Shown piece after piece: positions 2,413 through 38,587 of a stretch of 44,424 nucleotides of DNA. This DNA comes from Candidatus Mailhella merdavium. Its GTDB lineage: Bacteria > Desulfobacterota > Desulfovibrionia > Desulfovibrionales > Desulfovibrionaceae. The translations under genes were made by a program, and so were the position numbers. The notes beneath the pieces are model-generated. The model did not search any database. It saw only the letters and a program-made list of their open reading frames with translations, and had not been told where the DNA came from. Each line of letters opens with the position of its first letter. The first letter of the stretch is position 1. The stretch covers positions 1 to 44,424 of the forward strand of contig DWXS01000080.1 in NCBI GenBank assembly GCA_019119045.1, written 5' to 3'.

Positions 2413-2592
2413 TCGAACATATATGGTGCGCACAGGCTGTTTGTCATCGGACAGCGGTGTTCCTTGTGAGCTATACGGGCGAGGCGCCGACAAAGGAGGC
2501 TCCCCTTATAATCCGGCCACGGAGGCGGAGAAGTTTTTCAGAGTCTCTATCTCACGCCTTACCTGGTTTCATTCTGTTGACCGGATACATGT

Positions 2593-2631
2593 AAAACAAA
2601 AACCACCCGATATAAGGGTGGTTTTTGTTTT
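2593..2631. terminator. Bidirectional Rho-independent terminator
   Basis: Perfect 16-base arms AAAACAAAAACCACCC and GGGTGGTTTTTGTTTT surround a 7-base loop. The GC core with A/T-rich outer arms gives a U-run on either strand. It separates the plus-strand DUF362 gene from the convergent minus-strand gene ending at 2687. Its CCACCC/GGGTGG core recurs in the terminator at 14880. Confidence 0.85.
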
Positions 2632-2686
2632 GCCGATATGACCTGTATGTCCGGAAACGAAAACTTTATCCTGTTCCGGGAATACT

Positions 2687-3328
2687 TCAGGCAATGAGAT
2701 TGATTCCGCTGTAATAAGCCGCGCCGCCGCTGTAGAAAGATGCGACGGAATCGGTAGCAGAAAACCATGCGGTCATGGATTCGATTTGCAGACGGTTTCT
2801 GATCGCGTCAACGTCAAGGCCCTGCTTTTTTCGACTTTCTTCCAGCTTGTTCAGGCTTTGTATTTTTTCAAATGAGCTTACAACATCAGGATTGTCGTTC
2901 AGGTATGTTTCTATGACAGCTTTGGCATCGGGATCGTCACAATTCACGCTGACGCCTGAACCGTTTGCATTAATGGTGATGCTGAACTTGGTATCTTCAT
3001 CAAGACCAAGTTCCCGTAAATCTTCCTTGACCTGTTCGGTAAGAGAATCTTGCAGCTTCTGATTATATTCCGAGAGAGTCTTGAAGGAAATTTTGTCGTT
3101 TTTGCCGAGATTGAGGTCATCCATGATCCCGGAAAGCGCGGAGCTGAGGACGTCAAGAGTCGTATTCAACCCGGCATAAGGATTTTTTTCAGTGGAATCA
3201 GTCCCCGAGGTTTTATTGGTGGTGGCAGACTGTTTTTCTTCGGAGGAATTTTTTTCCGCCGAGAGGGAATCAAAATTCCAGATGGACGATGTGCTTGCGT
3301 AACTGCCGTATATGGAAGAAATGCTCAT
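2687..3328 (-). CDS. Unrecognised Ser/Thr-rich protein, possibly secreted without a signal peptide
   Basis: I do not recognise this 213-residue protein. The start at 3328 was chosen because AGGGAG lies 7 bases upstream; the open frame continues to 3400 without a good ribosome site. The N-terminal 50 residues (MSISSIYGSYASTSSIWN and onward) are rich in Ser, Thr and Tyr and have no signal peptide. A charged Lys/Glu/Asp-rich middle (about residues 60-190) is predicted mainly helical. The C-terminus is short, small and aromatic (YSGGAAYYSG). The disordered polar N-terminus and helical body resemble substrates of flagellar-type export, but that is only an analogy and no named domain is visible. 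The gene stands alone, between a terminator and the phoH promoter region. Confidence 0.7.
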   Translation of the reverse strand: MSISSIYGSYASTSSIWNFDSLSAEKNSSEEKQSATTNKTSGTDSTEKNPYAGLNTTLDVLSSALSGIMDDLNLGKNDKISFKTLSEYNQKLQDSLTEQVKEDLRELGLDEDTKFSITINANGSGVSVNCDDPDAKAVIETYLNDNPDVVSSFEKIQSLNKLEESRKKQGLDVDAIRNRLQIESMTAWFSATDSVASFYSGGAAYYSGINLIA

Positions 3329-3551
3329 GGTTCGCTCCCTTGCATGACTTTGCGGAATAAGTTGCCTGATTGAAACTCCATAAAGCAAAAAATGTGCCAA
3401 ATATTGAGCAAGGTTCGGTGGACGGCATTTTTTTTTTGCTGTAAAAAAAATTAATCATGCTGTCGTATCCTTCCCTGCCGTTTTTCAGGGAAGAGTTTTC
3501 AGACACTTATTTTGAGCAGAACATTGGCAGAACGCCTGTTGTTGGAACGTC

Positions 3552-4586
3552 ATGTCTTTTACGGAAACTATTGCCTTTGATGACCCCCGGTTGGCCGGCG
3601 AGTTGTTCGGACCTTTAAATGCCAATCTTGAACTTGTGGGCGATATATCCGGTGCGGCATTTTCGACATGCGGAGCGGAGCTTGCGGTCACGTCGCCGGA
3701 TCCTGAACTGCGCGGGCTTCTGCTGAAGCTGTTTGCCCAGGCATATGATCTTCTTAAAAGCGGCCGGAAGCTTCAGGGCGAAGACCTGTTGCAGGGGTAC
3801 GAGGCTCTTGTGCGGGATCCTTCGGCAAACATGAAGGAACTTTTTCGCGAAGCCGGTGTGATCGTCACTCCCCGCAAGCATATTTTAGCCAGAAATGCAG
3901 CGCAACGGGCCTATATTGATGCTCTGCGCAAGCATGAGGTAGTCTTCGGGGTCGGCCCTGCCGGAACCGGTAAGACATATCTGGCCGTGGCCGTAGCGCT
4001 TTCGATGCTTGCGGCAAAGAGAGTCAAGCGCATAATCCTGACCAGACCTGCCGTCGAGGCAGGCGAAAAACTGGGATTTTTGCCCGGAGACATGGAAGAA
4101 AAGGTCAATCCCTATCTGCGTCCTCTGTATGACGCTCTTGGGGATATGCTCGGTTCCTCCGCTCTTGCGGCACGACAGGAGAGCGGTGTTATCGAGGTGG
4201 CTCCGCTTGCCTTCATGCGCGGACGCACGCTCAACGATGCCTTTCTCATTCTCGATGAAGCCCAGAATACGACCAGAGAGCAGATGAAGATGTTCCTCAC
4301 TCGTCTGGGCTTCGGGTCTCGCGCCGTCATTACGGGAGACATAACGCAGATTGACCTGCCCCCCGTGCATAGAAGTTTGCTGCGGGAGGGGGAAAAGGAA
4401 GGTGAAACAAGATCCGGTCTGGTTCATGCGCTCATGGTTCTGCGCGGCGTGCGCGGAATAGCCTTTCATCACTTCGGAAATGCCGACGTGGTTCGGCATC
4501 CTCTGGTTGGCCGTATTGTGGACGCTTACGATCGTAACGACGAGCCTCCTTCGCGTCGGGAAGTGAAGAATCAGGCGGAGCAATGA
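3552..4586 (+). CDS. phoH: PhoH-family ATPase (PhoH-like, YbeZ type)
   Basis: The 344-residue cytoplasmic protein has a Walker A motif GPAGTGKT (K141) and a Walker B motif LILDEAQNT (about 233-240). The Q-loop/arginine region ITGDITQIDLP is as expected for PhoH. The N-terminal 90 residues form the small domain usually found before the ATPase domain in YbeZ-type members. YbeZ proteins act with YbeY in rRNA and RNA metabolism, and ybeY indeed lies two genes downstream. The start lies after only a weak GGA. No good alternative start preserves the N-terminal domain. The gene is intact and the family call is secure; the exact RNA role is inferred from the family and neighbourhood. Confidence 0.93.
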   Translation: MSFTETIAFDDPRLAGELFGPLNANLELVGDISGAAFSTCGAELAVTSPDPELRGLLLKLFAQAYDLLKSGRKLQGEDLLQGYEALVRDPSANMKELFREAGVIVTPRKHILARNAAQRAYIDALRKHEVVFGVGPAGTGKTYLAVAVALSMLAAKRVKRIILTRPAVEAGEKLGFLPGDMEEKVNPYLRPLYDALGDMLGSSALAARQESGVIEVAPLAFMRGRTLNDAFLILDEAQNTTREQMKMFLTRLGFGSRAVITGDITQIDLPPVHRSLLREGEKEGETRSGLVHALMVLRGVRGIAFHHFGNADVVRHPLVGRIVDAYDRNDEPPSRREVKNQAEQ

Positions 4587-4736
4587 TGACGTTCTCGCTG
4601 TCTGCCTGCCTTCTTGCGAGGTCTTCTTTGCTGAAGATTTGTCTGCATTTTGGTAAGGGCAGGAAAAATCCCTTAAACTCTGAATGAAAACGCGGGGAAT
4701 GGCCTTGATCCTACCTGGCGTTATCAGGGATGCACC

Positions 4737-7313
4737 ATGATAAAGAGCAAACGTTCTTCTTTAAACGGAACGAAAGTGCTGAGCCTTCTCCGCGTTCGCT
4801 GGAATACTCACGATCGGGGGTTGGGCCTGCTTGCTCTGGTCTGTACCTTTGCCGTGCTTTCCATATTGGCCGCCCTGTTTCAGGGCGGCCGTCCCGGTTT
4901 ATATCTGGCCGGAGAGGTTGCCGCGCAGGACGTTGTGGCCGATCGCGATATCCTGGTGGAAGACGAACAGGCCACTCAGGCACGGCGCGAACAGCTTATA
5001 GCGGTACAGCCGCGCATATTTGATGTGGATAAGGCAAGTATTCTGCGTTTTCGAGAGGAAACGCTGACCCTTCTGCGGACGGCAGAACAGGCTGCGGACA
5101 TTGCGTCTTCGCTTTCTGAAAAAAAAGATACCTCGCATACGGAGAATCCTCCCCTTTCATTCGCCGACGATTTGCAGAAGAGCAGCAGGCTTTTTGAAGC
5201 GGACAATTCTTTTCCCGTGGAAAAAAAAGAAGCTTCCTCCGGTGAGGAAGGGGTTTCCTCGTCACCGCTGCAAAAAGCTTCGGGAATTTTTCCCGATCGC
5301 AGCGAGAAGAAAAAGCTGGTAACGCCGCAGGAGCTTCTTCGCGAGTTCAACGCCAGATATGGCTTGAACATAGGCGAACAGGATTTTCAGTCCTTATATT
5401 CTCCCGATGTTCGAAAAATAGTCCTGAAGGATATTCTGCCCTGGATGGAGAGCCGGCTGGGCGAGGGGGTTCTGCCCGATATCCGTCAGGTGGCAGCGCA
5501 GAACGCCATTATTGTACGGGACCCGGAAAACGGGCTTGAAACACTGCGCAGACAGGCGGACGGACTGCATGATGTTCGTTCTCTGGATGTCGAACTGGGA
5601 CTTTATCTGCGTTCTCTGCCCGATGTGGATGTCGCGGGACGCACGGCTCTGGCCCATATGCTTCCTCCCATGATCATGCCGACTCTTACGCTCAATCTTG
5701 AAGCGTCACAGCAGAGGGATGCCGTCATACAGCGAGCGGTAAAGCCCGTATTGCACAGGGTTCAGCGGGGAGAGGTGGTTGTCCGGGCCGGAGATACCGT
5801 CAGCGATGAGCAGCAGCTCAAAATGCAGGCTTTGGCCGGGCCTGGGCCTGGTCTGGTGGACTGGATGTATGCGCCTGGTGTCTTTCTGCTTTCCTGCCTG
5901 CTGGGTCTGGGCCTGTTCCTGCTACCCGCTTCTTCCAAAGAAGATGTGCTGACCACGCGGGATGAACTGTTTATCGCTTTGCTTTTGCTGGTGTTCGGCG
6001 GGGTAGCCTGGGGTATTTCAAGCGTACTTCATGCCGTGCCCGGGCCGAATTCGGCGATGATGCTTGTATATGCCTATCCTGTGGCCGGTGGTGCGGGGCT
6101 GGCGGCTCTTATCTTTTCATCTCGTCATTATGGCGTTATTTCGCTTCTTCTGGCTTTTTTCGGTACAGTCATGTTTCATGGCGACCTGGGGTTGTTCTGC
6201 TTTTACTTTTTGTCTGCCGTGGCCAATACGAGGCTTCTCATACATGCACAAAGCAGGCATGATGCCGTATGGGCAGGACTGCCTCTGTTCGTCTGGCTGT
6301 TGGTATCCGGACTCGGAGCGGCGTTTTTGGCCCGGATAGACTTTTTTCAGATTCCTGTTCTGATGCTGGCGCTTGCCTTCAACGCGCTGCTTTCCGTACT
6401 GCTGCTTTTTGCTCTGAGTCCGATTCTGGAAACCGTGCTGGGCTACACTACCCGCTTCCGTCTCATGGAACTCATGAATCTGGAGCAGCCTCTGCTTCAG
6501 GAAATGATGATGAATGTTCCCGGCACATATCATCATTCGTTGATTGTCTCAAACCTTGTGGAGGCGGGAGCCTCTGCCGTGGGCGCAAACAGTCTTTTAT
6601 GCAAGGTCGGGGCATTGTATCATGATATCGGCAAGCTCCAGAAGCCCGATTATTTCGTCGAAAACCAGTTCGGCGGGCCGAATCCGCACGATAAACTTTC
6701 TCCTGCAATGAGTGCGTTGATACTCTGCTCCCATGTGAAACGGGGGGTGGAGCTGGCGGAGGAATACAAACTTGGCGATCGCATCTGCCAGATTATCGCA
6801 CAACATCACGGTAATCGTATTATTCAGTATTTTTTCAATAAGGCAAAGACGCTGGGGGAAAATCCCCGTGCGGGAGACTACAGCTATCCGAACCTGAAGC
6901 CGCAGAGCCGCGAGGCCGCCATTGTGATGATGGCGGATTCCGTCGAAGCGGCCAGTCGTACGCTGGTGGACCCTACTCCTGCCCGGATACGTTCCCTTGT
7001 GGAGAATATTATTAAGGGAATTTACGCAGAGCGACAGTTGGATGAAACGGAGCTTACGTTTCGGGACTTGAGCAGAATCATCGAAAGTTTTTCCCGTATT
7101 CTCACAGGGATTTTTCATCAGCGTATTGCCTATCCCAAGAATGATCTGCTTCCGCATGGAGGCGAAGGCGCCTGTGTTCCCGCTTTGAAAACAGACGAGG
7201 CCGGAGGAGAAGAACTTTCGCCCGAGATGCCGGAAATGTTTGACGGAGAAGCGGACGATTCGGGGGATACCGGTAAAAATGAGCGAAGAAAAAGTGAGGA
7301 ACAGGATTCATGA
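4737..7313 (+). CDS. Membrane HD-domain phosphohydrolase, 7TMR-HDED (PgpH/YqfF) family
   Basis: The 858-residue protein has an N-terminal transmembrane helix (about 28-55), a large extracytoplasmic domain (about 60-375), a multi-helix membrane region (about 380-580) and a cytoplasmic HD domain. Its metal motif is visible as LYHDIGK, followed by SHVKRGVELAEEYKL and IAQHHG. PgpH homologues degrade cyclic di-AMP; that activity is inferred from the family. It lies between phoH and ybeY, the common bacterial order. The stop overlaps the ybeY start by 4 bases (ATGA), so the two are probably translationally coupled. Two oddities are a low-complexity Ser/Glu/Lys segment in the outer domain (about residues 120-195) and an acidic C-terminal tail of about 50 residues. 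Confidence 0.92.
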   Translation: MIKSKRSSLNGTKVLSLLRVRWNTHDRGLGLLALVCTFAVLSILAALFQGGRPGLYLAGEVAAQDVVADRDILVEDEQATQARREQLIAVQPRIFDVDKASILRFREETLTLLRTAEQAADIASSLSEKKDTSHTENPPLSFADDLQKSSRLFEADNSFPVEKKEASSGEEGVSSSPLQKASGIFPDRSEKKKLVTPQELLREFNARYGLNIGEQDFQSLYSPDVRKIVLKDILPWMESRLGEGVLPDIRQVAAQNAIIVRDPENGLETLRRQADGLHDVRSLDVELGLYLRSLPDVDVAGRTALAHMLPPMIMPTLTLNLEASQQRDAVIQRAVKPVLHRVQRGEVVVRAGDTVSDEQQLKMQALAGPGPGLVDWMYAPGVFLLSCLLGLGLFLLPASSKEDVLTTRDELFIALLLLVFGGVAWGISSVLHAVPGPNSAMMLVYAYPVAGGAGLAALIFSSRHYGVISLLLAFFGTVMFHGDLGLFCFYFLSAVANTRLLIHAQSRHDAVWAGLPLFVWLLVSGLGAAFLARIDFFQIPVLMLALAFNALLSVLLLFALSPILETVLGYTTRFRLMELMNLEQPLLQEMMMNVPGTYHHSLIVSNLVEAGASAVGANSLLCKVGALYHDIGKLQKPDYFVENQFGGPNPHDKLSPAMSALILCSHVKRGVELAEEYKLGDRICQIIAQHHGNRIIQYFFNKAKTLGENPRAGDYSYPNLKPQSREAAIVMMADSVEAASRTLVDPTPARIRSLVENIIKGIYAERQLDETELTFRDLSRIIESFSRILTGIFHQRIAYPKNDLLPHGGEGACVPALKTDEAGGEELSPEMPEMFDGEADDSGDTGKNERRKSEEQDS

Positions 7314-26110: not shown

Positions 26111-29100
26111 TCAGTTTTCAGAGGAAGCTGTTTGGGGTGCCGTGCGGTGGAAGATGCGCCGTATGGTTCTCAATACCCAATCTCCGAAGTGATCAAGATA
26201 CACATAATATACGGGAGTGATGTACAGCGTCACCACCTGCGAAAACACCAGGCCGCCGGCTACGCATATGCCTATGGGACGGCGCATGTCCGCCCCGGTA
26301 GCTCCCATGCCTATGGCCAGAGGAAGCGCGCCCATTACGGCGGCCAGAGTCGTCATCAGAATGGGGCGGAAGCGGATGAGGCAGCCTCTGATCACGGCCT
26401 CTTCGGGAGAGATATGCTCTTTGCGTTCAGCTTCAAGGGAAAAGTCAAGCACCATAATGGCATTTTTCTTGACGATGCCGATGAGCATGATGATCCCCAC
26501 GAAGGCCATCATGTCCAGCTCGAGATCAAAGATCCAGAGCAGCAGCATGGCTCCGAAGGCTGCGGAAGGCAGTCCGGAAAGAATGGTGATCGGGTGGATG
26601 AAACTTTCATAAAGGATGCCCAGAACAATATAGATAAGCGTCAGAGCCACGATAATCAGGATAACCATGCTGACGACGGAGGACTGGAAATCCTGAGCCG
26701 TACCGGTAAAACTTCCGGTTACGGAATCCGGCAGAATTTCGGCCGCCGTGTCTTCCACATCCTGCATTGCGTCTCCCATGGCGTAGCCGGGCGAGATGTT
26801 GAAGCTGACGTTGACGGCAGGGAACTGGCCCCGATGGTTGACCGTCAGCGGGCCGGCTTCATTTTTATAGGTGACGATGGTGTCCAGAGGCACCAATGCG
26901 CCTTTTCCGGAGCGCAGGTATATGGCCGAAAGGACGGATGCGGAATCCTGAAGTTCGGGAAGCACTTCCAGCTTGACGGTATAGTCGCTGACATCCGTGT
27001 AGATGGTGGATATCTGTCGCGTTCCGAAGGCCGAATACAGCGCGTTTTCGATCTGCCGCAGAGTAATGTCGAGCATTCCCGCCTTGTCTCTGTCGATTTG
27101 CAGAAGAATTGTGGGATTCATGAGCTGCAGATCCGTTCCCACGTCGCGCACACTGTCTACGTCCTTAAGCGCACGTTCGAGTTCCTGAGCTGCCGGGTAG
27201 AGTTCCTCCACGTCCGTTCCGACAAGCGTATAGGTGTACTGTCCGCCGCTTCCGCCTGCTCCCCGACTGTCCGCATTCTGGACATAGACGTTGAGCGTGG
27301 GGTTGTTGCTCAGAGCGGCACGCAGCCGATTGATGACCACATCTATATGATCGCGTTCATTAATCGGCTTAAGCCGGACGGTGATATTGCCGGAGTTCGT
27401 CTCTCCGCGCGTTCCTCCGCCTACTGTAGAAAGATAGCTTTGTACCGCCGGATCAGCCGCTATAATCGGATGGAGACTGCGCTGCGCTTCCGCCAGAGCG
27501 GCAAAGGAGATGGATTCTTCCGCTCTTGCCGTTATGCGGATACGCCCCCCGTCCATGGCCGGGAAAAAGCCTGTTGGCATATGTGCGGCGAGTACGGCGG
27601 TGGCGGCTATGAGAGCAAGAGAAGCGACAAAGGTCGCAAAGCGATGTCTCATGACGAAATGAAGGCTGATTTCATACCCCCGCAGCAGCTTGCCGAAGCC
27701 GCTTTCCATAGTTCTCTTGAACCATCCGTCTTTAGGCTGAACGGAAGCGTCGCTCAGGAAGCGGGCGCTCAGCATGGGCGTCAGGCTGATGGCAATGAAC
27801 AGGGAAACGCTTACCGCAATGATGATGACGGCGGCAAATTCAACAAACATACGTCCGGCCACGCCCGGCATGAAGAGCAAAGGAATGAACACGGCGGCAA
27901 GGGAAATCGTCATGGACATGATGGTAAAGCCGACTTCTCCTGCGCCGTCCATGGCGGCCTGCCATGCGGATTTTCCCATTTCCCTGTGACGGACGATATT
28001 TTCCAGCATGACGATGGCGTCGTCCACCACGAAGCCGACCACGAGAATGAGAGCCATGAGTGAGAGATTGTCGAGGCTGAAGCCTGCCGCGAACATGAAG
28101 GCGTAGGTCGCCACGATGGAGAGCGGCACGGCCAGACTGGGAATAATGGTGGCCATGGCGTCATGAAGAAAGAGATATATGACGGCAATGACAAGAAAAA
28201 TGGTGAGAATGAGGGTAAACTGCACTTCGTGAACGGAATCCTGAATGGGAATGGAGCTGTCTTCCATCACGGACATATTGATAGAAGGGGGCAGGGATGC
28301 TTCAATGGAAGGCAGAATATCGAGAATGTCGCGCACCACCTGAACGGTATTACCGCCGGGCTGACGCGTCACCTGCACGATGACCCCGTTTTCTCCGTTG
28401 ACCCAGCTTGCCTGGGTGGTGTCTTCCACGCCTTCTTCCACCAGCGCCACGTCTTCCAGACGTACAGGCGCGCCGTTTCTCCATGCTACGATAATACGCG
28501 CAAACTCTTCAGGCCGACGCATTTCTCCCGAAGCCTTGATATTTCGGATTCGGGTTTTCCCTTCCAGCGTCCCCGTAGGCAGCGTGACGTTTGCATCCTG
28601 TACGGCGGCGGATATTTCATCCACGCTGACATCTCTGGCTACCATGAGCGCAGGATCGAGCTGGACACGCACGGCGTAGCGTTTTGCGCCGCGCACTTCC
28701 GTTTTGGAAACGCCGTTCACCATGGAAAGACGCTGCGAGATATAGGTTTCCGCGTACTGTGTAAGCTCCTGCGGGGTCAGGGATTTTGAGGTCAGGGCAA
28801 TTTGCAGGACAGGGAGGGAGTCCGGGTTGATTTTGATGAAGCGAGGCTGTTCGGTCATGGTGTCCGGCATACGCGAATATGCCTGAGAAATGGCTGACTG
28901 CACATCCAGGGCCGCTCCGTCTATGTCGCGGTCAAGCTCGAATTCGATCATGACCATGGTGCGTCCCTGCTTGTTGGTGGAACGGAGGCTCTTGATCCCT
29001 GCAATACCGGAAATCTGCTTTTCCAGAGGTTTTGCTACCGAGGTTGCCATGGTTTCTGGATTGGCTCCGGACATTTCGCCTATGACGGTGATATAGGGAA

Positions 29101-29224
29101 ACTCAACATTCGGCATGTCGTTCAGGGGCAGAAGCGTATAACTCAGAAGGCCGAATATGAGTATTCCCGCCATGATGAGGCTTGTCGCCACAGGGCGCTT
29201 GATGAAAACCGCCGACATGTTCAT
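26111..29224 (-). CDS. RND multidrug efflux transporter, inner-membrane pump (HAE1 family)
   Basis: The 1037-residue protein starts MNMSAVFIKRPVATSLIMAG and shows the two-repeat RND layout: twelve transmembrane helices and two large periplasmic loops. The proton-relay acidic pair is in the fourth helix (VGFVVDDAIVMLENI). The sequence PNVEFPYITVIGEMSGANPETMATSVAKPLE is typical of AcrB/MdtB-type pumps. It uses proton motive force to export hydrophobic compounds through an outer-membrane channel. Its start overlaps the adaptor stop (ATGA). No TolC-like gene is adjacent, so a shared outer-membrane channel is likely. The gene is full length with no frameshift. Confidence 0.95.
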   Translation of the reverse strand: MNMSAVFIKRPVATSLIMAGILIFGLLSYTLLPLNDMPNVEFPYITVIGEMSGANPETMATSVAKPLEKQISGIAGIKSLRSTNKQGRTMVMIEFELDRDIDGAALDVQSAISQAYSRMPDTMTEQPRFIKINPDSLPVLQIALTSKSLTPQELTQYAETYISQRLSMVNGVSKTEVRGAKRYAVRVQLDPALMVARDVSVDEISAAVQDANVTLPTGTLEGKTRIRNIKASGEMRRPEEFARIIVAWRNGAPVRLEDVALVEEGVEDTTQASWVNGENGVIVQVTRQPGGNTVQVVRDILDILPSIEASLPPSINMSVMEDSSIPIQDSVHEVQFTLILTIFLVIAVIYLFLHDAMATIIPSLAVPLSIVATYAFMFAAGFSLDNLSLMALILVVGFVVDDAIVMLENIVRHREMGKSAWQAAMDGAGEVGFTIMSMTISLAAVFIPLLFMPGVAGRMFVEFAAVIIIAVSVSLFIAISLTPMLSARFLSDASVQPKDGWFKRTMESGFGKLLRGYEISLHFVMRHRFATFVASLALIAATAVLAAHMPTGFFPAMDGGRIRITARAEESISFAALAEAQRSLHPIIAADPAVQSYLSTVGGGTRGETNSGNITVRLKPINERDHIDVVINRLRAALSNNPTLNVYVQNADSRGAGGSGGQYTYTLVGTDVEELYPAAQELERALKDVDSVRDVGTDLQLMNPTILLQIDRDKAGMLDITLRQIENALYSAFGTRQISTIYTDVSDYTVKLEVLPELQDSASVLSAIYLRSGKGALVPLDTIVTYKNEAGPLTVNHRGQFPAVNVSFNISPGYAMGDAMQDVEDTAAEILPDSVTGSFTGTAQDFQSSVVSMVILIIVALTLIYIVLGILYESFIHPITILSGLPSAAFGAMLLLWIFDLELDMMAFVGIIMLIGIVKKNAIMVLDFSLEAERKEHISPEEAVIRGCLIRFRPILMTTLAAVMGALPLAIGMGATGADMRRPIGICVAGGLVFSQVVTLYITPVYYVYLDHFGDWVLRTIRRIFHRTAPQTASSEN

Positions 29225-30360
29225 GAGGCAGCTCCGTCGCTGTTGCTGTCCTTATCCTGTGCAGTATGGGACTCCGGAAAACGTACGTCGATGCCGTCGG
29301 CAAGACGCACATGCCCTTCCATGACGACTTTTTCTCCGGCATTGAGTCCTTCGGTCACAACCCTGATCCCGTTATTTTCCACGCTGGTGCTGACCAGGCG
29401 GTATCTAGCCTTCATGTCGTCGCCCACGACATAGACGAATGTTCCGTCCGGACCGATGGTCACTGCCCGGGAGGGAACGGTGACCACGTTTTTGAGCAGG
29501 CGCAGGCGCAGCGTGATGCGCGTGTATTCCCCCGGCCACATGCTGCCGTCGGCGTTATTGAAGCGAGCCTTGAGCGGAACTGTTCCCGTTGTGCTGTCCA
29601 CATTGCCGATGAAGGTGAGTTCTCCTTCACTTTCCTTGTTGTCTTTGGTGCGTGCCGTAACCCGGAGGCTGGATTCCGAGGCTTGTCCCCGTAGTTCCGG
29701 GAGATAGCGTTCCGGAACGGAAAACGTTACGTCCACGGGAGCGGTCTCATCAATAATGAGCAGGGGTTGCGTATGTGCCGTGACGATATTGCCCCGATCC
29801 ACCTGAATGATGCCGGCGCGTCCGTCCATAGGCGCCCGAATTTCGCAGTAGGAAAGGTTGAGTCTGGCCTGTTCGACCGCAGCTTCGTCCACTTTTACGG
29901 CAGCCCGGTATCCGATGGCTTCCACGCGCGCCTCGTCATTTTGTGCTGCGCTGGTAAAGCCTCCGCTGGTCAGCTTCTGAGAACGGGCGAGATCCTGTTC
30001 TGCCTTGACCAGTTTCGCCTTGTCGCTTTCCAGTTGCGCGAGAACCTGATGCAAAGCTATTTCAGCAGGTTTTTTGTCGATGACGAAGAGCAGGTCGTCC
30101 TTTTTGACATATTGTCCTTCCCTGACCAGCACTTCCATCAGCTCGCCGCTGACCCGGGACACAATAGTCACTGTGGCCGAAGCCTCCACGGTGCCTACAG
30201 CCTCAATATTGGACGGCACATCAAGCAGTCTGGCCTCTGTGACGGTAACCAGAGCCGCCTTGGGGGCGCTTCGGACTGTTTTCTGTTCTTCATTCGAACA
30301 TGCCGTCAGACAGGCGGTGATGAGTAGACCACAGAGAACCGGGCGGCAAGATATGTGCAT
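29221..30360 (-). CDS. RND periplasmic adaptor (membrane fusion) lipoprotein
   Basis: The 379-residue protein has a lipoprotein signal with lipobox LTAC (C21). A beta-barrel/lipoyl hairpin follows (VEASATVTIVSRVSGELMEVLVREGQYVKKDDLLFVID), then an alpha hairpin (about 95-150) and a membrane-proximal domain ending with GLNAGEKVVMEGHVRLADGIDV. This is the HlyD/AcrA family. It couples the pump to an outer-membrane channel and is anchored in the inner membrane by its lipid. AGGGA lies 7 bases before the start. Promoter elements are visible about 180 bases upstream. Confidence 0.93.
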   Translation of the reverse strand: MHISCRPVLCGLLITACLTACSNEEQKTVRSAPKAALVTVTEARLLDVPSNIEAVGTVEASATVTIVSRVSGELMEVLVREGQYVKKDDLLFVIDKKPAEIALHQVLAQLESDKAKLVKAEQDLARSQKLTSGGFTSAAQNDEARVEAIGYRAAVKVDEAAVEQARLNLSYCEIRAPMDGRAGIIQVDRGNIVTAHTQPLLIIDETAPVDVTFSVPERYLPELRGQASESSLRVTARTKDNKESEGELTFIGNVDSTTGTVPLKARFNNADGSMWPGEYTRITLRLRLLKNVVTVPSRAVTIGPDGTFVYVVGDDMKARYRLVSTSVENNGIRVVTEGLNAGEKVVMEGHVRLADGIDVRFPESHTAQDKDSNSDGAAS

Positions 30361-30534
30361 GGCGTGTCCCTGAGCTGTTTTGAGAGTTGAGCAGAGTGTT
30401 TCTGATTGAGCCGGTATTACGAACCAAGGAAATCTTGTTCGCCGCGTTTCGACAGAAGTAAAACTCCGTGCTGTAGAACGGCTTTTTACTGATTTCCGGA
30501 CGCTAAGCCGGGCAGACGACGGGAGAGTGTCGAC

Positions 30535-30545
30535 AATGTTACATT
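30535..30545. promoter_or_regulatory. Palindrome at the pump promoter, candidate repressor site
   Basis: AATGT and ACATT flank a single T as a perfect palindrome that overlaps the -10 box. A copy of TGTTACATT recurs at 30640-30648. Efflux operons are often controlled by TetR-type repressors binding such sites, but no repressor gene is adjacent. Confidence 0.4.
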
Positions 30546-30573
30546 ATACAGTTTGTTGGGCTTGCCTTGTCAA
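30543..30573 (-). promoter_or_regulatory. Consensus sigma-70 promoter for the RND efflux operon
   Basis: Read on the minus strand, a perfect TTGACA (30568-30573) and a perfect TATAAT (30543-30548) are separated by 19 bases, slightly long. It points toward the adaptor gene about 180 bases away. Perfect hexamers on both boxes are rare by chance; the spacing lowers the certainty. Confidence 0.6.
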
Positions 30574-30958
30574 GCTTTTCAGACTTGAAATTCATTAAAT
30601 GAGATAAAAAATCAAATGCTTAGTGTGGTAATTCTTTTTTGTTACATTTTGTTTCAGGCTCCGGGAACAGCTCCTTGACGATGGCTGTATTCATAGATTA
30701 CAGACAGGGGCATACCTTATTTCCAGCGAGGTCGGAACATGACTTTTCTGTATCTTTGATGCGGCAGGAGCAGGAACCACAGGTTGTGGTTCACTCTTTG
30801 TCCGCACGGAGGGAGGAAAAGGGCTGTTCCGGTACTTGAGACAGCTGACCAGGATTCCTCTTTCTCCTCCTGAAAAATCACGGGCGGACCAGTCGAAGCG
30901 ACATAGAGGGCATGTTGCGTACTCGTCCAACCTTTCGGGACTTTTCAGAGGAGAAAGC

Positions 30959-32044
30959 ATGAAAAGTAATTTTTTTGCCACGACAGCAGGTATCGTGGTC
31001 ACCGGCGCGCTTATAGGCGTGCTGGCGGTTGTTCTTCAGCTCAACGGCAACCCGCCGAACATGGGTATCTGTGTAGCCTGCTTTGAACGTGATATTGCCG
31101 GCGCTCTCGGCCTGCAACGGGCTGCCATCGTCCAGTATCTGCGTCCGGAGATCATTGGGCTGGTGCTGGGTTCGCTCTGTGCCTCTCTGGCCTTCGGCAA
31201 TTTCAAGGCCCGCGGAGGCTCCTCTCCCATTACCCGTTTCATGCTGGGCATGATCGCCGCCATGGGTGCGCTGGTGTTTCTCGGCTGTCCCTGGCGAGCC
31301 GTACTGCGCCTTGCCGGCGGAGATTTAAACGCTGTTCTCGGTCTGGCCGGTTTATTTACGGGGATCGGAATCGGTACGCTCTTCTTCCGGCGCGGCTATT
31401 CTCTCGGCCGCAGCACGCAGCAGTCTGTATTGAGCGGCTGGCTTTTCCCCCTGCTCATGCTGTGTCTGCTGGCTTTGTACCTGTTCTTTCCTCAGATTGA
31501 AGGAAAGGATAAGAGCGGCGTGCTTTTTTATTCCGTTTCCGGACCGGGTTCGCAGCATGCGCCCCTGCTGATCTCTCTCGGCGTTGCTCTGGTTATCGGA
31601 TTCATCGCTCAGCGCAGCCGTTTCTGCACCATGGGCGCCTTTCGCGATCTCATTCTTTTCCGCCAGTTCCATCTTTTCCTCGGGCTTTGCGCCATGCTGA
31701 TAGCCGCATTCCTGATGAATCTGGCCTTCGGCGGCTTTCATCCCGGATTTGAAAATCAGCCTGTCGCCCATACCGAAGGTCTCTGGAACTTCCTCGGCAT
31801 GGTGACTGCCGGTCTGGCCTTTGCGCTCGCCGGGGGCTGCCCGGGGCGTCAGCTCTTCCTGGCAGGGGAAGGAGACTGCGATGCGGCTCTTTTTGCGACG
31901 GGTCTGCTTGTCGGGGCGGCCATGGCGCACAATCTGGGTACGGCCAGCTCCGCTACGGGGCTTGGACCTTATGGCATCCACGCCACGTTCATGGGGCTTG
32001 CCGTATGTCTTCTGATCGGTTTTCTTAACAGCAAAAAGGCCTGA
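30959..32044 (+). CDS. yedE: YedE-family selenium/sulfur transporter
   Basis: The 361-residue polytopic protein with about ten helices has paired YeeE/YedE-type cysteine motifs: NMGICVACFERDIAGALGLQ (C38, C41), FLGCPWRAVLRLAGGD, QRSRFCTMGAFRD and GGCPGRQLFLAGEGD. YeeE relatives import thiosulfate; the YedE branch that neighbours TusA and DUF3343 genes is linked in comparative genomics to selenium use. The first motif fits that branch. The start at 30959 is set by AGAGGAGA. tusA follows after 11 bases, so the unit is an operon. Whether the cargo is a selenium or sulfur species is inferred from context. Confidence 0.88.
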   Translation: MKSNFFATTAGIVVTGALIGVLAVVLQLNGNPPNMGICVACFERDIAGALGLQRAAIVQYLRPEIIGLVLGSLCASLAFGNFKARGGSSPITRFMLGMIAAMGALVFLGCPWRAVLRLAGGDLNAVLGLAGLFTGIGIGTLFFRRGYSLGRSTQQSVLSGWLFPLLMLCLLALYLFFPQIEGKDKSGVLFYSVSGPGSQHAPLLISLGVALVIGFIAQRSRFCTMGAFRDLILFRQFHLFLGLCAMLIAAFLMNLAFGGFHPGFENQPVAHTEGLWNFLGMVTAGLAFALAGGCPGRQLFLAGEGDCDAALFATGLLVGAAMAHNLGTASSATGLGPYGIHATFMGLAVCLLIGFLNSKKA

Positions 32045-32055
32045 GGAGCGTTTAT

Positions 32056-32268
32056 ATGACAAAAGAAATAGATACCTGCGGTCTTTCCTGCCCTCAGCCC
32101 GTGCTGATGGTTCACGAGGCGATAGCGGCCGGGGTGGACAGCCTGGATGTCCTGATGGATAACGAAGCCAGCCGCGAGAATGTCACCCGTGCGGCGGAGA
32201 AAAAAGGCTTTACCGTAACGCCGTTTGAACTGGATGGCGGCCTTTGCCGTCTGGAACTACGCAAATGA
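32056..32268 (+). CDS. TusA-family sulfur/selenium carrier (YedF-like, single domain)
   Basis: The 70-residue protein is one TusA domain with CGLSCPQPV (C8 and the carrier cysteine C12). TusA proteins pass sulfane sulfur, and in selenium gene clusters possibly selenide, between partners. Firmicute YedF has an added C-terminal DsrE-like domain that is missing here. The stop overlaps the next ATG (ATGA), so the carrier and the following DUF3343 fusion are translationally coupled, consistent with a relay. Confidence 0.9.
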   Translation: MTKEIDTCGLSCPQPVLMVHEAIAAGVDSLDVLMDNEASRENVTRAAEKKGFTVTPFELDGGLCRLELRK

Positions 32269-33899
32269 ATCTGCGGAATCTGTTTCGCAGCCTGACCTCT
32301 TCCCTTGCCCCTCTTTCCGGGACGGGGAAGGGGCCAGGCCCCGTATCATCATCCCATGAAGTCGAACAGGGTCTCATGGTGTTCGAGAATACGGCGGAAG
32401 TCATTCGTGCGGAACGCCTTTTTCGGGAGCGGGGGCTGCCCGTCAAGGTCATGGGGCCTCCGCCCGATCTGCGTACCGGCTGCGATATGGTGCTGGTCTT
32501 TCCGCTGCTGATGGAACTGGCCGTGCGAAAGACACTGGAAGACGAGCGTCTGCATCTTCTGAAAATTGTTCCTCAGCATGACTTGCTGCTGGAGCCTGTA
32601 TCTCTGTTTCATGTCCGCCGCTATGGAAAGTATCTGATGGTACGCGCGGCAAACATGAAGATGACAACAGATCTCGAGGAAGGACGTATCGTCAATGTTT
32701 CGGGCGGAGGCTGTCCGGATGTTCCCTATCTGGCGTCTCTGCTGGTGGGAAGCCGCTTTGAAGGCTATGGCTCCGCCTCCCCCGCAGGGGAGGAGAAATG
32801 TGCCGAAGCTCCTCGTTTGCACGGCAGAACGCTGTGTTCCTATTCGTTGCAGAAGGCCTTTGAAGAGACGGAGCGTCTTCTCAAGCATCCCGGAGACATG
32901 CCGGAAGCGGAAGACTGTGAGGTTCGGAAGCCGGAGCGTCCCGTATTTTCTCCTCTGCCTCTGCCCGGGAAAAAAAGGCCGTGGCTGATCTGCGGCTCTG
33001 TACCCGACGCAGCCTTTCCTCTTTGTCGCGGACGTTGGGCCCTGAAGGGAGAAGAGCTTCTGCCGCTGGACGGGCAGGCCGGAGGGCGTGCGCTTCCAGT
33101 ACAGAGGGGGACTCCTGCGCTTGTTGCTGCGGCTCTTGCCTGCTTTTCAGAGGAGAAAGCGGAACTGGAAGCTCTGCTGGTCGGTGACGACGGTTCCGGA
33201 CAGGGGAGTAAAGCTCTTTATGGCAAGCTGGCAGAAGATATTCTGCCTGTTGCCGGAGTCTCTGAAGGAAGCCGCGATATGTTGGAAGGGTTGACCTTTC
33301 ACTATCTTTTTCCCGATGTTGACGGTCACAACCGCGTACTCATGGCTCTGGATGCGATGGAGCGGCGTCCTCTTGCCGTAGCCGATGCGGGATTTATGTA
33401 TGCCGCAAAGATGAGCGGGTATGCGGCCAGTTATGATCTGTTTACGCCTGATGCCGGAGAGCTGGCCTTTCTGGCTGATGAAAAGGCCCCGCATCCTTTT
33501 TATACGCGGGGCTTTGTTCTCGCCGGGGACAAAGATGTCACGGAGCTGGCAGAGAGGGCCTTTCAGTATGGAAACTGCCCGCAATACATGCTGGTGAAAG
33601 GCGTTTCGGATATGTTGTTTAAAGGAAAGGAGCTTGTGGCCCGGGTTGACTCTCCGTGCGTTCCCGCCATGGAATGTATGGGAGGAACCGGCGATTTTGT
33701 CGCGGGAATGACGACCGGACTGCTGGCTCTCGGTTATGATCTGGAAAGTTCTGCGCTGGCTGCGGCGCGGTGCAACCGTCTGGCCGGTGCAGCCGCCGCG
33801 CCTACGCCTGCCACAAGAGTGGCGGAACTCCTGCCTTATGTTTCTACAATCATGGATGCCCTGCGGAGAGGAGACGCTTCCCGGCTTCATGCGGAATAA
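32265..33899 (+). CDS. Fusion: DUF3343 (Se/S carrier-like) plus NAD(P)HX-dehydratase-like kinase domain
   Basis: The 544-residue protein has a DUF3343 domain at about 35-100 with the family cysteine C73 (DLRTGCDMVLVF). A second region (about 105-205) carries SGGGCPDVPYLA (C150). The C-terminal ribokinase-like domain (about 235-540) shows LFTPDAGELAFL, a VKGVSDMLF strand and GGTGDFVAGMTTGLLALG (473-490, with D477 as likely base). The last three features resemble the ADP-dependent NAD(P)HX dehydratase (NnrD/CARKD) family more than sugar kinases. What the kinase domain phosphorylates or dehydrates is unknown. I chose ATG 32265 (ATGA overlap with tusA); an earlier TTG at 32244 is less likely. The fusion and its operon with YedE and TusA suggest a role in selenium or sulfur handling. 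Confidence 0.78.
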   Translation: MNLRNLFRSLTSSLAPLSGTGKGPGPVSSSHEVEQGLMVFENTAEVIRAERLFRERGLPVKVMGPPPDLRTGCDMVLVFPLLMELAVRKTLEDERLHLLKIVPQHDLLLEPVSLFHVRRYGKYLMVRAANMKMTTDLEEGRIVNVSGGGCPDVPYLASLLVGSRFEGYGSASPAGEEKCAEAPRLHGRTLCSYSLQKAFEETERLLKHPGDMPEAEDCEVRKPERPVFSPLPLPGKKRPWLICGSVPDAAFPLCRGRWALKGEELLPLDGQAGGRALPVQRGTPALVAAALACFSEEKAELEALLVGDDGSGQGSKALYGKLAEDILPVAGVSEGSRDMLEGLTFHYLFPDVDGHNRVLMALDAMERRPLAVADAGFMYAAKMSGYAASYDLFTPDAGELAFLADEKAPHPFYTRGFVLAGDKDVTELAERAFQYGNCPQYMLVKGVSDMLFKGKELVARVDSPCVPAMECMGGTGDFVAGMTTGLLALGYDLESSALAAARCNRLAGAAAAPTPATRVAELLPYVSTIMDALRRGDASRLHAE

Positions 33900-33918
33900 T
33901 ATCTCGGACGCCCTACAA

Positions 33919-33944
33919 CGGGAACAAGGCACGCCTTGTTCCCG
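33919..33944. terminator. Perfect hairpin between convergent genes
   Basis: The 12-base arms CGGGAACAAGGC and GCCTTGTTCCCG flank a 2-base centre. It lies 20 bases after the fusion gene stop and 43 bases beyond the convergent gene's stop. No U-run follows on either strand, so it may stop transcription inefficiently or need Rho. Confidence 0.5.
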
Positions 33945-33986
33945 CATAGCGACGAAAGCGGGGAAGGGGGGAACGACATGCCGCAA

Positions 33987-34610
33987 TCAGGCGAGAACGT
34001 GGCGTGCCGTTTCTCCCGGCGCAGGGCGCAGACGCTCAAATATATCTTGGGCCAGCTCCCGGCAGGAAGGATCCGGATCGTTCCGGGCCTCGTGCAGGAC
34101 ACACAGCCCTTCATGCTTTAAATCCGGCCAGGCAGTGATGACGCGCTCCACAGCACGGTAGCAGGAAAGGCGCAGCGGGGCATAGTCGCACCATGTGTTG
34201 TCGCCCTCTCTGTTCCGGATGTAAGAGAACAGAACGCGATAAAAATCGTCAGCCAGAGGACGCGATTGCGCCAGAGCTTCTCCGAAGGCTTCGGGAATAC
34301 CCCAGCCTATATTGCCCGACTCTTCGTTCATATGCCACATGAAACGTCTGATGACGTTTTTTGCCTCTTCCGGTCTTTCCTGCCGTAGAACGCGCAATAC
34401 TCCTCCCAGTGCGACGGCCGCTCTTTCTGCAAAGGGGGAACCCTCCGGAAGGCAGGCAAAGAGCGGGCCGACAAGTGAAGTCGGATCCGTCTGCCTGTTT
34501 TCAAGAGCTATATCGGGAGAAATATCGGGGGGCAGAGGCTGATCCGCAGACCAGTCCTCACGGTGTATCCAGTTGCGAACGCTATGTTTCAGAGCGCGGA
34601 ATCGGGGCAT
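33987..34610 (-). CDS. HEAT-like repeat protein, DVU0298 family
   Basis: The 207-residue all-helical protein has the segment NVIRRFMWHMNEESGNIGWGIPEAFGEAL, which I associate with the DVU0298-type proteins of Desulfovibrio. Helical pairs then continue to the C-terminus (CVLHEARNDPDPSCRELAQDIFERL) as in HEAT/armadillo repeats. The function of that family is not known; such repeats usually mediate protein contacts. The start at 34610 is fixed by an excellent AAAGGAGG 7 bases upstream, although the frame is open for another 104 codons. It converges on the selenium/sulfur operon. Confidence 0.75.
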   Translation of the reverse strand: MPRFRALKHSVRNWIHREDWSADQPLPPDISPDIALENRQTDPTSLVGPLFACLPEGSPFAERAAVALGGVLRVLRQERPEEAKNVIRRFMWHMNEESGNIGWGIPEAFGEALAQSRPLADDFYRVLFSYIRNREGDNTWCDYAPLRLSCYRAVERVITAWPDLKHEGLCVLHEARNDPDPSCRELAQDIFERLRPAPGETARHVLA

Positions 34611-36844: not shown

Positions 36845-38587
36845 ATGCAGCATGGCTCTTTTTCCCGCATGCTGGCTCATGCTATGGGGCGCATTGCGCC
36901 CCGTTCCTTTTTTCCTCACGGCACTTCGGCTCCCGAAGGAGGGCCGTTCCGCCCCAAACTGCTTGCCGTATTAAAAAACGGATATTCCGCAGCGGAGTTC
37001 GGCAAGGATGCAATAGCCGGCCTTACGGTCGGCGTGGTGGCCATGCCTCTGGCCATGGCCTTTGCCATTGCTTCCGGTGTGGATCCCGTCCAGTGTCTAT
37101 ATACGGCCATCATCGCCGGTCTGGTCATTGCTTTGCTGGGGGGGAGCCGGTATCAGATAAGCGGCCCTACAGGGGCCTTTGTCGTCATCATTTACGGTAT
37201 AGTGTACCGGCACGGATATGACGGACTTGTTCTGACCACGCTGATTGCCGGCTGTCTTCTCGCTTTGGGAGGATTGTTCCGGCTCGGTTCGATTATCAAG
37301 TTCATTCCGTATCCGGTGACGACGGGATTCACGGCGGGCATAGCCCTGATCATCTTTTCTCAGCAGATGGGAGACTTTTTCGGCCTTCCCATTGAAAATG
37401 CGCCGCCTGAATTTTTCAGCAAATGGGTCGTCTATCTTGAGGCCATACAGGATCTTTCTCCCGTCACTCTCGGCGTTGCAGGCTCCACACTTGTGGTCAT
37501 GCTTCTGATCCGCCGTTTTGCCCCCAAAGTTCCGGCGCCTGTGGCCGGCGTTATCTTCGGCGGACTGATTGTCTGGCTGTTCAATCTTCCGGTAGATACG
37601 ATTGCCAGCAAATACGGCGCAATTCCTTCAACCCTTCCTTCCTTCCACTGGCCGGAAATCAGTATCGAGCGTATTCAGATGCTGTTTCCCGATGCGGTGA
37701 CCATTGCCCTGCTGGCCGGTATTGAATCCCTGCTGACCTGTGTCGTTGCGGACAGCATGACTGGGGACAAGCACTATTCCAACATGGAATTGGTAGCTCA
37801 GGGGGCGGGAAATATAGCAAGCTCGCTGTTCGGCGGTATTCCTGCCACAGGGGCCATAGCCCGTACCGCTACAAACATCAGCAGCGGCGCACGTACGCCT
37901 GTTTCCGCCATTATCCATTCCCTTACCGTACTTGCCTTCGTGCTGTGGCTTTCTCCGCTCACGTCCGCAATTCCTCTGGCGAGCCTGGCCGCCGTCATGG
38001 TCATTATTGCCTGGGGAATGCTGGAAACCAAGGCTATCAAAGCTATTCTCCACGGCCCGAAGTCCGACTGGTCGGTCATGCTGCTGACCTTTGTTCTGAC
38101 ACTTGTCGTGGATCTCACCGTGGCGGTGTATGTCGGCGTTATTCTGGCCTCTCTGCTCTTCATGAGACGGATGAGCGTCATGACCAGCGTTCATGAAGTC
38201 GAGTGTCAGGACGGGGACTGTGAGGAACTCCCTCTGGAACAGCCCTCATTGCCCGAAGGCGTTCACCTTTTTTCCATCAACGGCCCCTTTTTCTTCGGAA
38301 TGGTGGATCGTTTTCAGAACGCTCTTGCCGGTACCCAGAGTTCCGTACGGGTGTATGTCCTTAACATGCGCGATGTCCCTACCATAGACGCGACGGGGAT
38401 TCACGTTCTTGAGGCCTTTCTTGCTCACCGTTCCGAGGGATACAAAGTTGTGCTTGCGGCTGTTCCTGCTCCTACCAGAAGAATTCTGCGTCGTATGGGC
38501 CTGCTGCGCAGCCTTGGAGAAGACAATGTCTGTCACTCTCTGGAAATGGCTCTGGCGCGTGCCGCCGAACTTGCCCGCAGCAGGTAG
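36845..38587 (+). CDS. SulP-family anion transporter with STAS domain
   Basis: The 580-residue protein has a SulP membrane domain (about 50-450) with IAGLTVGVVAMPLAMAFAIASG, YQISGPTGAFVVII and ATGAIARTATNISSGARTP. A cytoplasmic STAS domain follows (about 470-570) with MRDVPTIDATGIHVLEAFL. SulP proteins carry sulfate, bicarbonate or dicarboxylates with protons or sodium. In a sulfate reducer sulfate is an obvious guess, but bicarbonate is equally possible. AAAGG lies about 10 bases before the ATG; other in-frame starts within 20 codons are possible. The STAS phosphorylation-type region (DATG) is intact. Confidence 0.92.
   Translation: MQHGSFSRMLAHAMGRIAPRSFFPHGTSAPEGGPFRPKLLAVLKNGYSAAEFGKDAIAGLTVGVVAMPLAMAFAIASGVDPVQCLYTAIIAGLVIALLGGSRYQISGPTGAFVVIIYGIVYRHGYDGLVLTTLIAGCLLALGGLFRLGSIIKFIPYPVTTGFTAGIALIIFSQQMGDFFGLPIENAPPEFFSKWVVYLEAIQDLSPVTLGVAGSTLVVMLLIRRFAPKVPAPVAGVIFGGLIVWLFNLPVDTIASKYGAIPSTLPSFHWPEISIERIQMLFPDAVTIALLAGIESLLTCVVADSMTGDKHYSNMELVAQGAGNIASSLFGGIPATGAIARTATNISSGARTPVSAIIHSLTVLAFVLWLSPLTSAIPLASLAAVMVIIAWGMLETKAIKAILHGPKSDWSVMLLTFVLTLVVDLTVAVYVGVILASLLFMRRMSVMTSVHEVECQDGDCEELPLEQPSLPEGVHLFSINGPFFFGMVDRFQNALAGTQSSVRVYVLNMRDVPTIDATGIHVLEAFLAHRSEGYKVVLAAVPAPTRRILRRMGLLRSLGEDNVCHSLEMALARAAELARSR

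Follow-up and report, generated by a model that had tools for sequence, protein, structure and literature searches.

Gene arrangement

The 44,424-nucleotide contig DWXS01000080.1 of Candidatus Mailhella merdavium (Desulfovibrionales; hereafter the window, meaning the whole stretch of DNA analysed) carries three plus-strand genes for a YedE transporter, a TusA-like carrier and a protein in which an extended DUF3343 protein (DUF3343L) is fused to a kinase-like domain (KIN). Eleven bases separate yedE from tusA, and tusA overlaps the fusion gene by four bases (ATGA). This arrangement of gap, overlap and three families, as given in the original prediction, is borne out by the open reading frames (ORFs) and the family scores, and the tight operon of yedE, tusA and the DUF3343-kinase fusion is confirmed. 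The elements of the operon are:

30959-32044, plus strand: yedE, ATG start at 30959 and stop at 32044; 464 bits against TIGR04112 (cut-off 200)
32056-32268, plus strand: gene of the tusA-like single-domain carrier, 70 amino acids; 54 bits against PF01206 (cut-off 28.6)
32265-33899, plus strand: fusion gene DUF3343L-KIN, 544 amino acids, ATG at 32265 within ATGA; PF11823 and PF01256 domains
32370-32570, plus strand: DUF3343 domain (Se_S_carrier, PF11823) of the fusion, with the invariant C73
32598-32885 (approximate limits), plus strand: second DUF3343L domain, with the invariant C150 (SGGGCPDVP) and C191 (TLC)
32976-33854, plus strand: ribokinase-fold KIN domain of the fusion, with GGTGD at 33681-33695 and the catalytic-type Asp477

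Conservation, gene order and fusions

In total, 150 loci were read in three sets (30 + 40 + 80), of which 146 are distinct, given four duplicate records across the sets (L088/L107, L089/L131, L090/L095 and L092/L099). The 30 loci of the order are best matches, not a random draw, and include the window's own locus; the 80 loci of the wide scan are likewise not random but the best 80 of at least 546 relatives among 590 stretches, and their taxa, many of them metagenome-assembled genomes, follow the depositors' record names.

DUF3343L and KIN are separate genes in 145 of the 149 loci that have both halves, so the usual unit consists of four genes, encoding YedE, TusA, the extended DUF3343 protein and the ribokinase-fold KIN. 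The two halves share one frame in the remaining four loci, i.e. the window (L005), L006 and L007 from the same genus, and the distant L078. All four families are present in 136 of the 150 loci (132 of the 146 distinct ones), a few of these with a short YedE piece only. In the order they occur together in 30/30 fetched loci, window included, which is far beyond chance; in the wide scan they do so in 69 of 80 loci, several of the other 11 being cut by contig ends. Two main orders are seen, YedE-TusA-DUF3343L-KIN and YedE-DUF3343L-KIN-TusA. The original prediction of a three-gene order conserved in relatives was right about the conserved gene set; the unit itself is really one of four genes, in two main orders.

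Among 297 genomes of the order, P0002 was matched in 144, mostly as two pieces of about 200 amino acids (DUF3343L) and about 290-300 amino acids (KIN). TIGR04112 accompanies it in 143 genomes; P0002 alone was found in one (G112) and TIGR04112 alone in 12. Within the phylum, the KIN profile (E <= 1e-5) matched 98 of 345 genomes, 84 of them strongly; the 14 weak matches were set aside, 12 lying in frames of more than 500 amino acids (probably Nnr) and two (G489, G506) being perhaps fragments. The cassette spans several phyla: the best 80 wide-scan loci come from Syntrophales, Dehalococcoidia and other Chloroflexota, Moorella, Syntrophomonas, Thermanaeromonas, Actinomycetota, Calditrichaceae, Nostoc and others. 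In three loci (L153, L162 and L170) the first DUF-KIN copy is followed after a few kb by a second one, whose DUF part is split in L153 and L170.

Further fusions join other members. YedE and DUF3343L form a single frame of 548 amino acids in Nostoc (L139), and open frames run through KIN and TusA in L103, L141 and L152, where a Met precedes the TusA part in each case, so that a separate start is possible. Together with the DUF3343L-KIN fusions, every adjacent pair of the order YedE-DUF3343L-KIN-TusA thus shares one frame somewhere; single frames of YedE-TusA or TusA-DUF3343L were found in none of the 150 loci. Mantel tests of distance co-variation over 115 non-identical loci gave r = 0.91 for KIN-DUF3343L, 0.74 for both KIN-TusA and DUF3343L-TusA, 0.62 for KIN-YedE, 0.61 for DUF3343L-YedE and 0.55 for YedE-TusA. 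Each value was reached in 0 of 2000 permutations, and common genome descent contributes to all of them. By this measure KIN and DUF3343L are the tightest pair in the cassette.

Transporter and carrier proteins

YedE clearly exceeds the curated cut-off of the selenium equivalog family TIGR04112 (464 against 200 bits) and falls far below those of the thiosulfate transporter (TsuA/YeeE) models NF052577 (35.5 bits, cut-off 400) and NF041049 (26.4 bits, cut-off 645). Its cysteines C38, C41, C110, C223 and C294 are all invariant in the 101 full-length sequences aligned, from which short or split YedE were omitted (the cassette counts include such pieces). The TusA-like protein scores 44.8 bits against the YedF model TIGR03527 (cut-off 110) and holds nothing but the TusA domain in its 70 amino acids; it is a single-domain protein and not a full YedF. 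Its Cys12, in the CPxP motif, is invariant in 21/21 sequences.

The fusion protein reaches 55 bits against PF11823 (Se_S_carrier, formerly DUF3343; cut-off 25). DUF3343L measures about 200 amino acids in relatives and is fused to KIN in the window, outside the 80-100 amino acids of a stand-alone DUF3343. C73, C150 and C191 are invariant in 63/63 sequences. The cysteines listed as conserved in the original prediction (C38/C41 of YedE, C12 of TusA, C73 and C150 of DUF3343L) therefore all hold, and C191 is a further invariant one that it did not list. In the predicted model the DUF3343 domain has a ferredoxin/ACT-like appearance. For the second domain, no family of its own was found, nor any sequence match in the Protein Data Bank (PDB) at E <= 1; Pfam gave one weak match below cut-off (FKBP26_IF), and a Foldseek search with the whole DUF3343L model returned nothing at E <= 0.001. 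As the VIA-align rows cover mainly residues 33-109, no claim of a new fold is made for this domain.

Selenocysteine in the kinase or in DUF3343 was also considered, several matches in the order having in-frame TGA, TAA or TAG codons. In the fetched loci L005-L034, which the check covered, these stops are DUF3343L/KIN boundaries or KIN ends, and the idea was rejected.

Link to selenium genes

The genome of the window has both a selD with an in-frame TGA (selenocysteine-type SelD) and selA, each on another contig; the original prediction, which saw neither gene nearby and took the cluster to be self-contained, was wrong in this respect. In the order, selD immediately follows KIN in 12 of the 30 loci (27 of the 30 have at least 900 bases of room), and counting up to 3 kb downstream of KIN it was found in 12/30, 7/40 and 22/80 loci of the three sets, with two more upstream. 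Overall, selD is on the cassette strand in 43 of the 150 loci (42 of the 146 distinct ones), including loci from the window's own genus (e.g. L013, L016-L022). A scan of 90 neighbour ORFs (115 extracted) yielded 18 SelD, 5 YedF, 2 SelB and 2 selenium LysR proteins; other families came to at most two each, SelD-related models aside, all as raw counts without a background set.

At the genome level, a diverse selection of 50 cassette genomes contained 46 in which selD was detected. It was present in 135/144 P0002-positive against 115/153 negative genomes of the order, in 80/84 KIN-positive against 224/261 other genomes of the phylum, and in 11/11 KIN-positive against 94/146 other genomes of the class Dehalococcoidia, relatedness being ignored in each comparison. 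TIGR04112 was matched in 155 of the 297 genomes of the order, and 145 of these have selD, a weak test at a base rate of 250/297. On the selenium tie that the original prediction proposed to check by selD co-occurrence, the genome-level tests point in the same direction as the linkage within loci, but weakly, selD being common.

In the window's own genome, two NifU/IscU- and NifS-like genes (identified by eye) lie about 2 kb from selD (L179, G000:C30:1-8000, positions 3238-5369); they are a possible selenium donor.

A sulfur scenario has to be weighed against this evidence. The operon could be a module for import and transfer of thiosulfate or sulfane sulfur, similar to YeeE-YeeD or to the YTD cluster (YeeE-TusA-DsrEFH type II) found in Desulfobacterota that oxidise or disproportionate sulfur: PF04143 and TusA are common to both systems, YTD clusters are reported from cable bacteria and relatives (PMC13047784, PMC13293266), and the Nostoc cassette comes without a detectable selD. 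In contrast, the transporter belongs to the selenium equivalog family by a wide margin over the TsuA model, no DsrE-family match was found in the three operon genes or the six neighbours scanned, and selD and yedF head the list of neighbours, which also includes selB and selenium LysR genes. We consider a sulfur module unlikely and selenium the better reading for the cassette.

An equally unlikely scenario keeps selenium and reverses the flow. In selenium detoxification or homeostasis, YedE would export excess selenide or adducts loaded by TusA and DUF3343L, while KIN would tag or sense the load. That YedE might export surplus selenium was suggested by Lin et al. 2015 (PMC5322559), and the direction of transport is not evident from genomic data. 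Yet the linkage is to SelD and selenocysteine genes, YeeE-type relatives of known function import, and in Methanococcus maripaludis yedE mRNA rises by about 5 log2 units upon selenium depletion, which argues for acquisition (PMC11097638).

The kinase-like partner

The C-terminus of the fusion protein is a distant member of PF01256 (Carb_kinase; 32 bits, cut-off 27). Its predicted model has the overall fold of the ribokinase superfamily, and the GxGD-type catalytic loop is present as GGTGD, with the Asp invariant in 69/69 sequences; in the ribokinase superfamily, the Asp of this loop (Asp477 here) is the catalytic residue. The predicted fold and the intact loop suggest that KIN carries out an ATP-dependent phosphoryl transfer. 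No cysteine is invariant in KIN, which makes a place for it in the thiol chain improbable. Since KIN is fused to DUF3343L in some genomes and co-varies with it, it may act on the cargo of DUF3343L upstream of SelD.

The best relatives of KIN in sequence and fold are NAD(P)HX dehydratase (NNRD) enzymes. Against TIGR00196 (cut-off 129.85), KIN scores 37-38 bits in the window genome (38.4), with a maximum of 50.8 among the KIN scored, and a separate typical Nnr above the cut-off exists in 30/30 cassette genomes tested; the TPH motif of the one Nnr compared (L181) reads TPD in 69/69 KIN. Our data thus do not support the idea that KIN serves the genome as NAD(P)HX dehydratase; the domain is a relative of NAD(P)H-hydrate dehydratase but separate from it. 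That KIN is a mere duplicate of this enzyme, or a house-keeping kinase that just travels with the selenium genes, is for all its kinship with NNRD highly improbable in view of these scores and motifs, its fusion to DUF3343L in some genomes and the co-variation of the two. KIN best matches NAD(P)H-hydrate dehydratase models although the tested genomes have a separate typical enzyme, which points to a likely annotation error.

One genome of 1.6 Mb in which TIGR04112 was not matched has a KIN homologue split over two frames (L178, G112:C10:70000-80000, positions 2573-3345). A YedF-sized gene with a TusA domain and a selD-like gene (by eye) lie near this homologue.

Proposed function

The operon is probably a selenium import-and-delivery module feeding SelD, to which we assign a rough probability of 0.6. 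Computation shows that the four genes are conserved as a unit and fused in places, that certain cysteines are invariant, that KIN is predicted to have a ribokinase fold with a GGTGD loop, and that selD and other selenium genes are linked to the cassette; the transported species and its direction, the chemistry of the kinase and the order of the relay are inferred. If the proteins work as YeeE-YeeD do, YedE and TusA would import and capture a selenium species: YedE would pass a reduced or sulfane-like species across the membrane along its cysteine ladder, and Cys12 of the TusA-like protein would take it up as a perselenide-type adduct at the cytoplasmic exit. DUF3343L may then take over the selenium via C73 and the C150/C191 pair of its second domain. 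KIN, covalently joined to DUF3343L in the window, could spend ATP on modifying a small selenium carrier or on driving release, upon which selenide would reach SelD and be turned into selenophosphate for selenocysteine. DUF3343L and KIN would in this way add an ATP-dependent step between import and SelD.

More tentatively, DUF3343L-KIN might be an unrecognised ATP-dependent selenium-handling pair, in which C73, C150 and C191 load selenium and the kinase phosphorylates a carrier or ATP-gates release to SelD, and which together with YedE and TusA would make up a dedicated import-and-delivery pathway common to many mostly anaerobic phyla. Of the original prediction, the conserved set, the selenium tie, the invariant cysteines and the kinase member are supported by our results; the self-completeness of the cluster is not.

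Several observations weigh against a selenium import-and-delivery module. The selD base rate is high in the order (250/297), the phylum (304/345) and Dehalococcoidia (105/157), and co-occurrence with selD consequently discriminates weakly. No selD was seen in 107 of the 150 loci, many of these stretches being short, and four of the 50 diverse cassette genomes, Nostoc among them, lack a selD match. The same is true for nine P0002-positive genomes of the order and four cassette genomes of the phylum, all drafts of at least 160 contigs, in which a missing selD is indistinguishable from an assembly gap. The clearest exception, and an unexplained one, is the 8.6 Mb genome of Nostoc sp. FACHB-152: no selD match was obtained, although a YedE-DUF3343L fusion followed by KIN is present (L139, NZ_JACJRV010000036.1, positions 3367-5891). 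A PsbA-like gene (by eye) on the same stretch indicates that the contig is probably truly cyanobacterial. The Nostoc cassette may work on sulfur or on selenium without SelD, or may have been transferred recently.

Furthermore, 12 genomes of the order have YedE without KIN, and in the three inspected YedE stands alone or with TusA only within 10 kb. Although yedE is induced by selenium depletion in M. maripaludis, its deletion had a mild phenotype only, so that redundancy or another role is possible, and no transporter could be assigned to a selenium species there (PMC11097638). The exporter function suggested by Lin et al. counts on the same side. The three inspected loci, all from genomes of the same family, hold YedE alone (L175 and L177, in G005 and G084) or YedE-TusA (L176, in G120), with no DUF3343L or KIN within 10 kb, and are natural comparisons for the role of KIN.

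Neighbouring genes

One further feature lies upstream of the operon:

26111-30360, minus strand: genes of an RND efflux pump and an adaptor, running divergently from yedE at a distance of about 600 bases

Downstream follow a DVU0298-family gene (opposite strand) and genes for a PxxKW protein, an M20 peptidase and a SulP permease; neither the RND pair nor any of these four obviously belongs to the unit. The SulP-type permease has a STAS domain and lies 3 kb downstream of the operon (window positions 36845-38587). No known RNA family was found at gathering score in 30300-34200 around the operon.

Comparison with known systems

YedE, YedF, SirA-like proteins and DUF3343 have already been proposed as selenium genes (PMC5322559, PMC9312934), SirA-like/YedF as selenium candidates also in PMC2432076 and PMC2276186, and the DUF3343 family earlier as a selenium chaperone (PMC5322559); the original prediction rightly referred to YedE, TusA/YedF and DUF3343 as known neighbours of selenium genes. 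Its kinase-like partner proved a real and consistent member of the cassette that is absent from the accessible text of the selenium literature: no mention of the kinase or of an extended DUF3343 was found in the available parts of, among others, PMC5322559, PMC9312934, PMC13188914, PMC11097638, PMC2432076 and PMC2276186. The same holds for those of PMC11073785, PMC13047784, PMC13293266, PMC8780430, PMC4215793 and PMC10102598, supplements and most subscription papers being beyond this scope and absence from print thus unproven. The accessible portions of the D. alaskensis and D. vulgaris fitness papers contained no relevant passage.

The set of Lin et al. 2015 (PMC5322559) resembles the cassette in its TIGR04112 transporter, its TusA/SirA-like and DUF3343 neighbours and its link to SelD. 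The DUF3343 proteins described there typically have 80-100 amino acids, in contrast to about 200 here, where a second domain supplies two additional invariant cysteines; also, the accessible text names no kinase and the worked example of Slackia (Table 1) lists none, whereas our cassette has KIN. In the YeeE-YeeD (TsuA-TsuB) system of thiosulfate uptake, thiosulfate is proposed to move through YeeE via three cysteines until it reaches the cysteine of YeeD, a TusA-family protein (PMC11073785). A PF04143 transporter with a cysteine ladder and a TusA-family partner are common to this system and the cassette, and the hand-over logic is probably shared; the cassette differs in its equivalog family, its selenium gene neighbourhood and the extra DUF3343L-KIN pair. 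The YTD cluster also combines a transporter, TusA and a further carrier in Desulfobacterota, but in the cassette DUF3343L and KIN stand in place of a DsrE-family protein, which was found neither in the operon nor in the six neighbours scanned, and the link is to selD, so that it does not qualify as a YTD cluster. KIN, finally, is set apart from NNRD (PF01256/TIGR00196) by its score below cut-off, TPD instead of TPH, family-specific invariant residues such as K158 and H186 (KIN alignment numbering) and a typical Nnr in the same genomes.

In sum, YedE, TusA and DUF3343 had been proposed as selenium genes before; new here are the constant KIN component, the second domain of DUF3343L, which brings two additional invariant cysteines, and the breadth of the cassette. 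A four-gene unit kept across many phyla, often with selD and with its neighbours variously fused, offers named genes, cysteines and one enzyme to test.

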